64,000 nucleotides of DNA, taken from contig SIRU01000051.1 in the NCBI GenBank assembly GCA_004366385.1, positions 1-64,000 on the forward strand, read 5' to 3'. The stretch is from Actinomycetota bacterium (GTDB lineage: Bacteria > Actinomycetota > Thermoleophilia > Gaiellales > Gaiellaceae). Both the position numbers and the translations under genes were made by a program. Numbering within the stretch: the first letter of the stretch is position 1; every line of letters begins with the position of its first letter. Shown here one piece after another: positions 28,597-31,527 of this stretch. The notes under the pieces are model-generated. The model worked only from the letters and a program-made list of their open reading frames with translations, had not been told where the DNA came from and did not search any database.

Positions 28597-29313
28597 TCAG
28601 GCTCTCGTGCGGGACGCGCGATACGCGCGCGCCTCGTCGACGAGCGTCTCGAACAGGGCCTGATCCTCTCCCATCTCGGGATGCCACTGCACGCCGAGCA
28701 CGAACCGGCGTGACGTGTCCTCGATGCCCTCGAGCGTCCCGTCTGCCGCCCACGCGCTCTCGACGAGCCCGTCGCCGAGACGGCCCACGCCCTGGTGGTG
28801 GTGCGACGTGACCTTGCCGCGCGCGCCCACGATCGCCGCGAGCCGCGTCCCCTCCCGCACCTCGACGGGGTGCTCGGCGAACTGACCCGGCACGCGTCGA
28901 TGCTCCTGGTGGCCGACCGTCTCCGGGAGGTGCTGGACGAGATCGCCTCCGCGCGCGACGTTGAGGAGCTGGAAGCCGCGACAGATCGCGAGGGTCGGCA
29001 GGTCGCGCTCGAGCGCCGCGGCGAGGAGCGCGAGCTCGGCCGCGTCGCGACGAGCCTGCGGCGTGTCCGTCTCCGGGTGCGCCTCGGCGCCGTACAGCGC
29101 CGGGTCGACGTCCGCCCCGCCCGAGAAGACGACCCCGTCGAGCGCGTCGAGGGTCTCGTCGACGCCGTCCTCGCTCGGCGGCACGAGCACCGGCCGGCCG
29201 CCGGCGCGCTCGACCGCGTCGACGTAGTCGAGCGGGACGAGCGCGGCTGGGAGGCGCCAGACGCCCCACGTCGCCTCCTGCGCGTACGTCGTGATCCCGA
29301 TCACCGGCCGCAC
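28597..29313 (-). CDS. Class I glutamine-amidotransferase-like hydrolase (PuuD/gamma-Glu-GABA hydrolase family)
   Basis: 238 aa. The nucleophile Cys is in LAICRGFQLLNVA (about residue 108), with VTSHHHQGV (about 170) and the catalytic His-x-Glu in VLGVQWHPE (about 210), as in PuuD, which cleaves gamma-glutamyl-GABA. GTG at 29313 is 7 nt after TAGGTT (plus coordinates 29321-29326) with no Shine-Dalgarno. A longer frame to 29394 lies upstream of this promoter and was rejected. It is the first gene of the amidotransferase-PLDc_N-SDR operon, perhaps for catabolism of a gamma-glutamylated amine. Confidence 0.92.
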   Translation of the reverse strand: MRPVIGITTYAQEATWGVWRLPAALVPLDYVDAVERAGGRPVLVPPSEDGVDETLDALDGVVFSGGADVDPALYGAEAHPETDTPQARRDAAELALLAAALERDLPTLAICRGFQLLNVARGGDLVQHLPETVGHQEHRRVPGQFAEHPVEVREGTRLAAIVGARGKVTSHHHQGVGRLGDGLVESAWAADGTLEGIEDTSRRFVLGVQWHPEMGEDQALFETLVDEARAYRASRTRA

Positions 29314-29382
29314 GCGCGGCAACCTAGCCCATCGCCGAGCACGACGCGCCCAATTTGCGAGGAATTTCGTTCCTGAGGGGTC

Positions 29383-29411
29383 TTGAACGGACATGTCCGT
29401 TGCCGTAGATT
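29383..29411 (+). promoter_or_regulatory. Consensus promoter of RNA copy 1 with 16-bp palindromic operator
   Basis: TTGAAC (29383-29388), a 17-bp spacer and TAGATT (29406-29411). The perfect palindrome AACGGACATGTCCGTT (29386-29401) covers the end of the -35 and most of the spacer. AATTTGCG lies 23 bp upstream of the -35 and is conserved at all three copies. Confidence 0.75.
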
Positions 29412-29417
29412 TCCGCG

Positions 29418-29559
29418 TGCGCCGAGCACGGGGCGCCGGTAGGTCGAAGCCCCCCGAGGAGCACTACGCGGCAGCGGAAGGCTCGTCGGGAAGGTGGACG
29501 AAAGCGTTCCCGGCTCGGCGAACTCTTGTGGCTGGGCCCTTCGGGGCCCGGCCCTTTTT
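29418..29559 (+). ncRNA. Structured RNA, copy 1, with intrinsic terminator
   Basis: Transcription should start at about 29417-29418. The closing helix CGCCGAG (29420-29426) pairs with CTCGGCG (29514-29520). Inside, CGAGCACGG and the 3' block GTCGGGAAG..GGACGAA.GCGT..CCCGGCTCGG match copies 2 and 3, while the 5' interior has diverged. A 10-bp stem with UUCG loop and five U residues (29530-29559) ends the RNA, for a total of about 142 nt. It has no credible reading frame and no match to a family I know. Confidence 0.65.
29530..29559 (+). terminator. Rho-independent terminator of RNA copy 1
   Basis: A GGGCCC-TTCG-GGGCCC core extended by four pairs (one G-U), followed by five T. This is the best intrinsic terminator in the window. 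Confidence 0.85.
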
Positions 29560-29655
29560 CTCTCCAGGGCCACCAGAGCATGCAGGCCTGGCCGCAGCCT
29601 GACCCTGTGCGAAAGGAAAAGATCGCAATTTGCGACAAGTCTCGCGGAGGGGGTC

Positions 29656-29684
29656 TTGACGGCCTCCTCGAGCCCCCCTAGAGT
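29656..29684 (+). promoter_or_regulatory. Consensus promoter of RNA copy 2
   Basis: TTGACG (29656-29661), a 17-bp spacer and TAGAGT (29679-29684), six bases before the first paired base of the RNA. AATTTGCG lies 21 bp upstream of the -35. Confidence 0.75.
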
Positions 29685-29690
29685 CCCGCG

Positions 29691-29793
29691 TGCACCGAGT
29701 ACGGAGCGCCGGAGGTTGATGGCTCTCCGAGTGGCAGCCGCTTCGGCGGCGGTCAGTCGGGAAGCCGGACGAAGGCGTCACCGGCTCGGTGCA
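29691..29793 (+). ncRNA. Structured RNA, copy 2
   Basis: 103 nt. The perfect 9-bp closing helix is TGCACCGAG (29691-29699) with CTCGGTGCA (29785-29793). An inner stem GGAGC...GGTTG/CAGCC-GCTTC is kept against copy 3 (CAACC-GCTCC) by compensating or wobble pairs. The loop ATGGCTCTCCGAGTGG and the block GGTCAGTCGG are nearly identical in copy 3. The predicted start coincides with the first base of the helix. Downstream hairpins at 29796-29809 and about 29811-29835 may end it, but without a T-run. Confidence 0.65.
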
Positions 29794-29999
29794 CTTCTTT
29801 GTGCGCAAAGGAGCGGAATCGGCTAGCGGCGAGTCCGCTCCGCGCGAAGGGAGACCCCTCCACGGGGTGCCCGGGCAGCTCACCCCGTCGAGGTGTGAAG
29901 TCGGCTGGTTGTCCGGGTAGGCGCTCGAACCGCCCCGGGCTGCGCTCGCTGTCGAGGTAACGCGACTGCCGGCGGCCGCTGCGCCGGGCGGCCATGTCT

Positions 30000-30018
30000 C
30001 TTGGGGAGCGATCGTCAC
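30000..30018 (+). repeat. Dispersed 19-nt element, copy B
   Basis: CTTGGGGAGCGATCGTCAC, the partner of 12268-12286. It is preceded by GGCCATGTC, a word repeated at about 30033 and 30049. Confidence 0.5.
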
Positions 30019-30051
30019 ACACTCGGCACACGCGGCCATGTCGCGCGCGGC

Positions 30052-30078
30052 CATGTCCAGGGTCGGACCCTGGACATG
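30052..30078. repeat. Perfect 13-bp-arm palindrome between RNA copies 2 and 3
   Basis: CATGTCCAGGGTC and its exact complement surround one G. The outer CATGTCC/GGACATG half-sites resemble the operator of RNA copy 1. The rest of 29850-30150 has no gene. Confidence 0.6.
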
Positions 30079-30176
30079 TCGCAGGAGAACGACCGGCACG
30101 GAATTGTCACGAGGGTGCGCTCGACGCCTGCGCACGGGACGCACGGAATTTGCGTGAGATTTCCCCGGACGGGTGC

Positions 30177-30205
30177 TTGACCGCGGCGCGCGACTCGCCT
30201 AGTGT
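30177..30205 (+). promoter_or_regulatory. Consensus promoter of RNA copy 3
   Basis: TTGACC (30177-30182), a 17-bp spacer and TAGTGT (30200-30205), again six bases before the RNA helix. AATTTGCG lies 22 bp upstream of the -35. Confidence 0.75.
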
Positions 30206-30211
30206 CGTCCC

Positions 30212-30313
30212 TGCACCGAGCACGGAGCGTCGAGGTTGATGGCCCTCCGAGTGGCAACCGCTCCGGCGGAGGTCAGTCGGAGACGCCGGACGAGGCGCCA
30301 CCGGCTCGGTGCA
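30212..30313 (+). ncRNA. Structured RNA, copy 3, upstream of the MFS gene
   Basis: 102 nt. The closing helix TGCACCGAG (30212-30220) pairs perfectly with CTCGGTGCA (30305-30313). The inner stem is GGAGC, bulge GTCGA, GGTTG, loop ATGGCCCTCCGAGTGG, CAACC, GCTCC, followed by GGC and GGAGGTCAGTCGG. It ends 65 nt before the MFS start. It may act alone or, by read-through, as the 5' leader of that gene, though the MFS start has its own -10 box. Confidence 0.65.
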
Positions 30314-30378
30314 TTTCTCTTCTCGGACACGTCCGCTCGAGGCACGGCCGGAACGGACGGCCCGCATATCCTGGCCGC

Positions 30379-31527
30379 GTGCGCCGGCTCGTCGTCCTCG
30401 TCAGCTCGATCGTCTTCGTCGACGCGCTGCTCTTCACCGCGCTGACGCCGCTCGTCCCGGAGTTCGCGGCCCAATTCGGGCTCTCGAAGTCCGGCGCCGG
30501 CCTGCTCCTCGGCGCCTTCGGGGCGGGCGCGCTGCTCGGCGGCATCCCCGGCGGGCTCGCTGCCGCGCGCTTCGGCCCGAAGCACGCCGTCGTCTGGGGG
30601 CTCGTCCTGCTCGGGATCTCGAGCCTCGCGCTCGCACTGGCCGAGAGCGCCCTGACGCTCGGGCTCGCGCGCTTCGTGCAGGGCTTCTCGAGCACCGTGA
30701 CCTGGGCCGGCGCGCTCGCCTGGGCCACGAGCACGGCCCCGCGCGCGCAGCGCGGCCAGATGATCGGGACCGCCTTCGGCGCCGCGGTCGCAGGCGCGGT
30801 CGTCGGCCCGATGTTCGGCGGGATCGCCGAGGCCGTGGGGATCCGAGCCTCGTTCACGGCCGTGGCGCTCATCGCGTTCACCTTCGCCGGGCTATCCGTC
30901 CTCGCGACGGCCGCGCCCACGGAGCCGCTGGAGCTGGCCGGGCTCCGGCGCGCACTCCGCGACCGCCGCTTCCTCGGCGGCCTCTGGCTGAACACGCTGC
31001 CCGCCCTCCTCTTCGGGACGCTCGTCGTCCTGGCGCCGCTCGCGCTCTCCGACGCCGGCTGGACGACGCTCGCGATCGGCGCCGCCTTCTTCGCCGCGGG
31101 CGCCGTCGAGGTGGTCATCAACCCGGTGCTGGGACGCATCACCGACCGGCGCGGGCGGCGCCTTCCGATCCGCGTGGCGCTCGTCGCCTCCATCGCCGTC
31201 GCGGCCGCGCTCGCCGTCTCGTCGGAACCGGTCGCGATCGCCGTTCTCATCGGCGCGGCGGCGATCGCCTTCGGCAGCCTGTATACCCCGGGGATGGCGC
31301 TCACCTCGCATCGAGCCGACTCCACGGGTCTCGCCCAGGGCCTCGCCTTCGGGATCATGAACAGCGCCTGGGCGCTCGGCGCGCTCGTCGGCCCCTCGCT
31401 CGGCGGCGCGCTGGGCGACGCCCGGGGTGACGCGGTTCCGTATCTCCTCGGCGCGGTGCTGTGCGCGCTGACGCTCGCCGCGACGCTCCGCCCAGCCGGA
31501 CGGGAGGTGCGGACGCATGAAGCGTGA
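30379..31527 (+). CDS. Major facilitator superfamily transporter
   Basis: 382 aa with about 12 TM helices in two halves. The MFS A-motif appears as GGLAAARFGPKHAVVWG (loop 2-3, about residue 55) and again as GRITDRRGRRLPIRV (loop 8-9, about 253). Probable exporter of drugs or small molecules in the inner membrane. GTG at 30379 is 6 nt after TATCCT (30367-30372), without a Shine-Dalgarno; the longer in-frame extension to 30202 runs through RNA copy 3 and was rejected. It overlaps the methyltransferase by 11 nt. Confidence 0.9.
   Translation: MRRLVVLVSSIVFVDALLFTALTPLVPEFAAQFGLSKSGAGLLLGAFGAGALLGGIPGGLAAARFGPKHAVVWGLVLLGISSLALALAESALTLGLARFVQGFSSTVTWAGALAWATSTAPRAQRGQMIGTAFGAAVAGAVVGPMFGGIAEAVGIRASFTAVALIAFTFAGLSVLATAAPTEPLELAGLRRALRDRRFLGGLWLNTLPALLFGTLVVLAPLALSDAGWTTLAIGAAFFAAGAVEVVINPVLGRITDRRGRRLPIRVALVASIAVAAALAVSSEPVAIAVLIGAAAIAFGSLYTPGMALTSHRADSTGLAQGLAFGIMNSAWALGALVGPSLGGALGDARGDAVPYLLGAVLCALTLAATLRPAGREVRTHEA

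Follow-up and report, generated by a model that had tools for sequence, protein, structure and literature searches.

Three tandem sequences in the genome of an actinobacterium of the family Gaiellaceae almost certainly represent a real and previously uncatalogued RNA family, about 110-130 nt in length. All three lie on the + strand, in the 1 kb gap that separates a gene for a PuuD-like C26 peptidase (- strand) from an MFS transporter gene (+ strand), within a stretch of 64,000 nucleotides that was analysed as a whole and is hereafter called the window. Comparison with homologous sequences showed (i) a predicted long bulged hairpin, conserved through extensive compensating change, (ii) a sigma-70-type promoter for each gene, placed such that transcription would start at the base of the hairpin, and (iii) a palindrome at about -61, the tandem copies appearing as old paralogues kept as separate transcription units. 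Since the family is near-universal in Gaiellaceae and each copy has its precise promoter, a conserved RNA control system is probably at work in these organisms. The best explanation of the whole, which we hold with about even confidence, would be an independently transcribed, activator-driven, structured RNA that is specific to its order and acts in trans by binding protein. Gaiellales abound in soil and are for the most part uncultured actinobacteria; in the searchable literature, no study of small RNAs in Gaiellales or Gaiella was found.

RNA copies, promoters and flanking genes in the window

The coordinates of the array are given in Table 1. The original prediction of three tandem structured-RNA copies was borne out by a covariance model (R1), built from a MAFFT alignment of 38 sequences (A2), which recognised all three. 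Copy 1 is of type 1, with the conserved GUA/GAA internal loop and a GGCA apical loop, while copies 2 and 3, which share 89% identity, are of type 2: they have lost the AGUA side, carry AGGUUGAUGG, and end in UUCG and UCCG apical loops, respectively. Compared with shuffled sequences, the fold energy is far lower for copies 2 and 3 (z scores in Table 1) and only slightly lower for copy 1 alone (z -1.7). A fourth copy of the same genome lies outside the window (C30:105957-106069). A coding function of the copies is opposed by insertions and deletions whose lengths are not divisible by three, and by the pattern of compensating changes in homologues.

Table 1. Features of the array and of its flanks (positions in the window)
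Feature	Position	Strand	Evidence or remark
RNA copy 1	about 29417-29528	+	covariance model R1, 112.3 bits, E 2.2e-20
RNA copy 2	about 29690-29800	+	R1 111.2 bits; fold z -6.8
RNA copy 3	about 30211-30320	+	R1 95.2 bits; fold z -6.1
Copy 1 promoter, TTGAAC - 17 bp - TAGATT	29383..29411 (-35 29383-29388, -10 29406-29411)	+	sequence, alignment
Copy 2 promoter, TTGACG - 17 bp - TAGAGT	29656..29684 (-35 29656-29661, -10 29679-29684)	+	sequence, promoter scan
Copy 3 promoter, TTGACC - 17 bp - TAGTGT	30177..30205 (-35 30177-30182, -10 30200-30205)	+	sequence
Palindromic upstream site, copy 1, CCCAATTTGCG	29349..29359	+	1 mismatch to CGCAAWTTGCG
Palindromic upstream site, copy 2, CGCAATTTGCG	29624..29634	+	exact CGCAAWTTGCG
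Palindromic upstream site, copy 3, CGGAATTTGCG	30144..30154	+	1 mismatch to CGCAAWTTGCG
Palindrome form, presumed activator site, CGCAAATTGCG			
Predicted intrinsic terminator, copy 1, GGCTGGGCCCTTCGGGGCCCGGCC + T tract	29530..29559	+	
Gamma-glutamyl-type peptidase C26 (PuuD-like) gene	28597..29394	-	Pfam PF07722 1.7e-66
MFS transporter gene	30202..31527	+	Pfam PF07690 5.6e-43

Direct reading of the sequence agrees with the claim that every copy is preceded by TTGANN, 17 bp and TAGNNT, the -10 element ending 6 bp before the first base of the helix as originally counted and 5 bp before the start given by the model; the promoter scan returned 1 site against 0.0 expected. The AATTTGCG word, said to stand 21-23 bp above the -35 element, was found 23, 21 and 22 bp above it in copies 1, 2 and 3, with the correction that it is one arm of a palindrome, CGCAAWTTGCG, of the kind typical for activator sites.

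In this 70% G+C DNA the output of the ORF finder overlaps everything, and the MFS ORF as listed overlaps RNA copy 3. The true start of the C26 peptidase gene is probably near 29317, ahead of the copy 1 promoter, and for the MFS gene a start near 30380 is more likely; a TATCCT motif stands 7-8 nt before it, which would give the gene a leaderless-looking arrangement with a promoter of its own. The motif is seen at this distance from the start codon in the window (30365-30385) and downstream of the copies of loci L094, L103, L104 and L108, hence in several relatives; TAGGATCGNNNNATG precedes other starts, and together these observations suggest that leaderless transcripts may be common in the group. 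It is very improbable that copy 3, or whichever copy comes last in an array, serves as a 5' leader regulating the MFS transporter: the last type-2 copy does lie just upstream of a same-strand MFS gene in several genomes, but most homologues lie at other places or have a convergent gene as their next neighbour, a TATCCT precedes the MFS gene itself in several genomes, and a U-rich tract ends each copy.

Between copies 2 and 3 (30052-30078), we noted, among GGCCATGTC repeats, an inverted repeat whose two 13-bp arms match perfectly across a single nucleotide, CATGTCCAGGGTC-G-GACCCTGGACATG. A sequence near recR, CCAGGGTCAGACCCTGGACA (L208:644-670), resembles it, which suggests a short repeat dispersed in the genome.

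Conserved fold and core

The conserved fold is a single bulged hairpin, in which a closing helix of 11 pairs and a helix of 3 pairs lead to the core internal loop; three further short helices and a tetraloop complete the structure. In the sequence-only alignment A2, 97.1% of cells are paired, against 25-36% with the partners slid by 1-3 columns, and the observed covariation was reached by none of 500 shuffles. With other families included, the corresponding figures are 96.7% and 25-34%, the covariation score is 0.414 against 0.164 in shuffled alignments (0/500), and two-sided changes occur in 27/29 pairs (429 cells, and 94 in shuffles). In alignment A7 the support for pairs derives in large part from fitting the sequences to the model, which was not done for A2. 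G-U pairs are tolerated. In one other family (f3) the outer closing helix has been rewritten, for example as CGCCGTCG / CGACGGCG, with pairing kept. The homologues have strongly covarying helices, as the original prediction anticipated, and this secondary structure backed by compensating changes is that of an independent RNA family.

The closing helix CACCGAG/CTCGGTG had been correctly proposed at the outset. The inner stems GGTTG/CAACC and GGAGC/GCTCC, put forward as compensating, are not helices of the conserved fold and give way to other, covarying pairings; GCTTC/GCTCC belongs to the apical hairpin. Two further candidate pairings were discarded. The RNAalifold register of helix 2 (columns 19-20 with 108-109) was replaced by one that pairs better (18-20 with 106-108), and a local terminator hairpin in the 3' arm, CACCGGCTCGGTG, was not kept; because copies with CTCGGCG leave the local partner of this hairpin unadjusted, it is the long-range closing helix that represents the conserved pairing. 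A run of U follows the closing helix and is itself followed by GGUCC in 53/101 copies, also in another family (e.g. L034:3673, L085:1028, L169:1501); being complementary to the invariant core GGAC, GGUCC is a candidate pseudoknot or termination element. A separate observation concerns the g9 genomes (L167:1501-1722), where a single promoter precedes two RNA units joined directly head to tail, each with a closing helix of its own.

Nearly all four-base apical loops are GNRA (GGAA, GCAA, GCGA, GUGA, GAGA) or UNCG, and copies devoid of a four-base loop have an 18-31 nt extension of the apical hairpin. AGUAG is present on the 5' strand of the core in 82/130 copies, always together with GACGAAA on the 3' strand (82/82). 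In these 82 copies the AGUA/GAA core bears what reads as a sarcin-ricin-like (bulged-G) loop signature. Beneath the GNRA cap lies a second UA/GAA loop, the bulged G of which varies. On account of the GNRA/UNCG tetraloops and of the strict AGUAG/GACGAAA co-occurrence, the loops have the look of structural elements and not of antisense seeds.

These features bear on two other readings. A base-pairing (antisense) small RNA with additive copies, like the Qrr or LhrC RNAs, would agree with the multiple copies, their own regulated-looking promoters and the intrinsic terminators; we regard it as unlikely, because no conserved single-stranded seed is exposed, and moreover the apical loops are tetraloops, the best-conserved unpaired bases belong to an internal loop made of two strands, and the U-rich tail varies. 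A decoy of the ribosomal sarcin-ricin loop, which would bind a translation GTPase or a ribosome-targeting nuclease, draws on the AGUA/GAA loop of type 1 across families and on the second UA/GAA loop; it is less probable still, given that the bulged G of the second loop varies, that type-2 copies lack AGUA, and that the motif is common in many unrelated RNAs.

Distribution, genomic context and promoters across the order

A BLAST search with copy 2 against 103 genomes of the family Gaiellaceae recovered full-length homologues, many of them in tandem. With R1, copies were detected in 97/103 Gaiellaceae genomes, in 10 genomes of the order's other families, and four times in the window's own genome (including the C30 copy); with R2, a model made from 130 sequences, they were detected in the same proportion of Gaiellaceae (97/103) and in 11 genomes belonging to three further families of the order. 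The homologues are always full length and number 1-6 per genome. An even phylum sample of 396 genomes yielded five matching genomes, all within the window's order, and the covariance search found none among the others of that sample; the filters are stricter in large searches, which could therefore overlook distant relatives. The 3' strand motif occurred in records named as Gaiellaceae, Gaiella, Thermoleophilia or uncharacterised Actinomycetota bins, and in two bins labelled otherwise: in the Synergistaceae-labelled one R1 finds no copy, and the Burkholderiales-labelled one is probably a labelling or binning matter. Judged from these searches, the family appears specific to the Gaiellales-type order of Thermoleophilia. 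Its presence in 94% of family genomes, in 1-6 copies whose promoter is preserved down to single bases, implies that it has an important role, be it regulatory or in housekeeping.

Most genomes have one copy located between a sigma-70 gene of housekeeping type and apt, the latter accompanied by a MerR-family gene and an unknown gene; uppP often intervenes. At this ancestral locus the RNA has a convergent gene downstream and, as a rule, a divergent one upstream, so that it is not a leader. The same locus bears on the possibility of a second, lineage-specific RNA polymerase-binding RNA, 6S-like in function, that would mimic duplex DNA and regulate the housekeeping holoenzyme. Such an RNA would fit the long hairpin of promoter-like size, the predicted transcript start at the hairpin base, and the adjacency of the ancestral copy to two sigma-70 genes, or its separation from them by uppP only, in many genomes. 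We consider it improbable, to about the same degree as antisense action, as the genome has a separate 6S-like RNA (RF00013, E 6e-8, 45.6 bits, cut-off 46.4), the hairpin has no large asymmetric central bubble, its internal loops being short, structured and purine-rich, and the other copies are not near sigma genes.

Other members of the genus, and a second genus (g10), also have the array of the window (type 1, type 2, type 2) between the PuuD-like gene and the MFS gene. Each of the genome's four copies has its nearest relative in the corresponding copy of another species, and a single clade (17 tips, support 0.92) unites the type-2 copies of the window's genus and of g10. The copies are thus old paralogues; a recent repeat expansion, which the original prediction had likewise dismissed, was rejected, since the copies group with orthologues of other species and not with their neighbours. 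A DNA-level or mobile repeat (MITE-like or cruciform) in place of an RNA gene would account for tandem copies rich in inverted repeats, yet has next to no probability: synteny is kept across genera, different species share orthologous copies, promoters stay in register, G-U pairs are tolerated and the tetraloops are typical of RNA. A plasmid-borne element was also rejected, nothing relevant having been found in the plasmid collection.

Promoter statistics were compiled for the 100 copies with full upstream sequence. The spacer measures 17 bp in 79, 16 bp in 9 and 18 bp in 8 of them, the -10 element ends 5 nt (87 copies) or 4 nt (10 copies) before the model start, and the palindrome is matched at 9 or more of its 11 positions in 92, with its centre at -60 to -63 in all but one. 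A centre at about -61 corresponds to the class I activator position. The promoter is thus kept in about 90-97% of the 100 copies, which supports the original view of an unrecognised structured RNA with its own promoter at each copy. The combined promoter pattern was present in 83/103 genomes, with 0 matches in the reversed control. The window's genome contains three exact palindromes, at copy 2, at the C30 copy and in a C42 region upstream of a short ORF. Sites with at most one mismatch number 12, 8 of which are not at RNA copies, about the control number (10).

The same promoter layout also precedes a small Cys-rich ORF in some genera and an intergenic hairpin between recR and asd in the window's genus, from which we infer that the regulon of the presumed activator is small, with these RNAs as prominent members. 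Weak model hits near such non-RNA promoters were attributed to chance (E 0.28 or worse). The recR-asd case (L208:1500-1605; G000:C51:16227 on) has the palindrome and promoter before a perfect hairpin of about 40 nt (CACTGAACCGGC...GCCGGTTCAGTG), with similar promoters in other genus members (G030, G031, G032, G038), and may represent a further small RNA or attenuator belonging to the same regulon. The Cys-rich ORF (e.g. MSKTTKATCDDCYFRRAGLCALSPETPCPTF), near position 1501 of L211, L212, L213, L229 and L231-L234 (genera g2 and g9), lies downstream of a gene for a PDZ/Lon-like protease and may belong to the same regulon. At about -89, a conserved GGAAATGTGGAYAA element stands at a fixed distance (e.g. 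L086:6609, L098:1347, L107:1681) and reads on the other strand as a DnaA-box-like TTRTCCACA; it is found mainly at copies adjoining the sigma-70 gene and is possibly the divergent gene's promoter.

Proposed mode of action and comparison with known RNAs

In the mechanism that we propose, a dimeric activator would bind the palindrome in class I position (about -61) and switch on all copies together, their number raising the RNA dose. The transcript would start at the hairpin base and end in the U-rich tract or at a following terminator, such as that of copy 1. The RNA would then act in trans through a protein bound at its rigid core, made of the AGUA/GAA sarcin-ricin-like loop, the GGACGAAAG strand and the GNRA/UNCG-capped stem; this protein would be modulated or sequestered, with no base-pairing to mRNAs. 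We infer the protein partner solely from the conservation of the loops, and protein binding as the mechanism stands, in our judgement, at an even chance. More tentatively, and with a probability clearly below that, a near-universal, order-wide RNA regulator with a dedicated activator could form a global circuit unrelated to CsrA, Hfq and 6S, possibly working via the housekeeping transcription machinery (the ancestral copy lies beside sigma genes) or by sarcin-ricin-loop mimicry. The covariance model, consensus promoter and palindrome make the binder, the activator and the targets of the RNA directly testable questions.

The original statement that no known RNA family matches was confirmed: Rfam 15 gave no match at gathering thresholds for the three window copies and nothing near threshold up to E 10, and for eight homologous loci from four families it matched only an unrelated tRNA. 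Known RNAs (5S, SRP, 6S, tRNA) were rejected accordingly. Nor is a CsrA sponge likely, since CsrA is absent from this genome and from 96/103 family genomes; it is present in 7/103, against 97/103 for the new RNA.

RsmX/RsmY/RsmZ and CsrB are multi-copy RNAs with their own promoters, a palindromic upstream activating site and a small dedicated regulon. The new RNA resembles these GacA-driven, CsrA-sequestering RNAs in its several unlinked or tandem copies, in having a promoter at each copy together with a shared palindromic upstream site, and in its presumed small dedicated regulon; the likeness is one of architecture only, as the palindrome differs and a single rigid hairpin takes the place of repeated ANGGA loops. 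Papers on the RsmX/RsmY/RsmZ and CsrB systems include PMC2375449 and PMC7911923. The proposed mode of action recalls RsmY/RsmZ-CsrB or 6S RNA in outline, although the new RNA is a member of neither family. With 6S RNA (RF00013) it shares a long bulged hairpin and a terminal closing helix, but it is shorter (about 110 against about 180 nt), has no central bubble and no Rfam match, and the genome's sole 6S candidate is another gene (C12:8983-9142, L146), whose score just under the cut-off suggests that the 6S RNA of this lineage may escape standard annotation. Bacterial SRP RNA (RF00169/RF01854) resembles the new RNA in the length of its hairpin and in its GNRA-type cap; the two are linked neither by sequence nor by a model match, and the genome's sole SRP match lies elsewhere (C51:9170-9269; RF00169 78.2 bits, large SRP 151.6 bits). 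5S rRNA is comparable in length, closing helix and loop E motif, whereas the new RNA has no three-way junction, and RF00001, included in the scanned library, did not match the copies. The sarcin-ricin/bulged-G (loop E) 3D motif, to which AGUA opposite GAA in the core internal loop is likened by its sequence signature, is a module of many RNAs and not a family. Overall, the family is new, and its general kind, the multi-copy, activator-driven, structured small RNA, is known.
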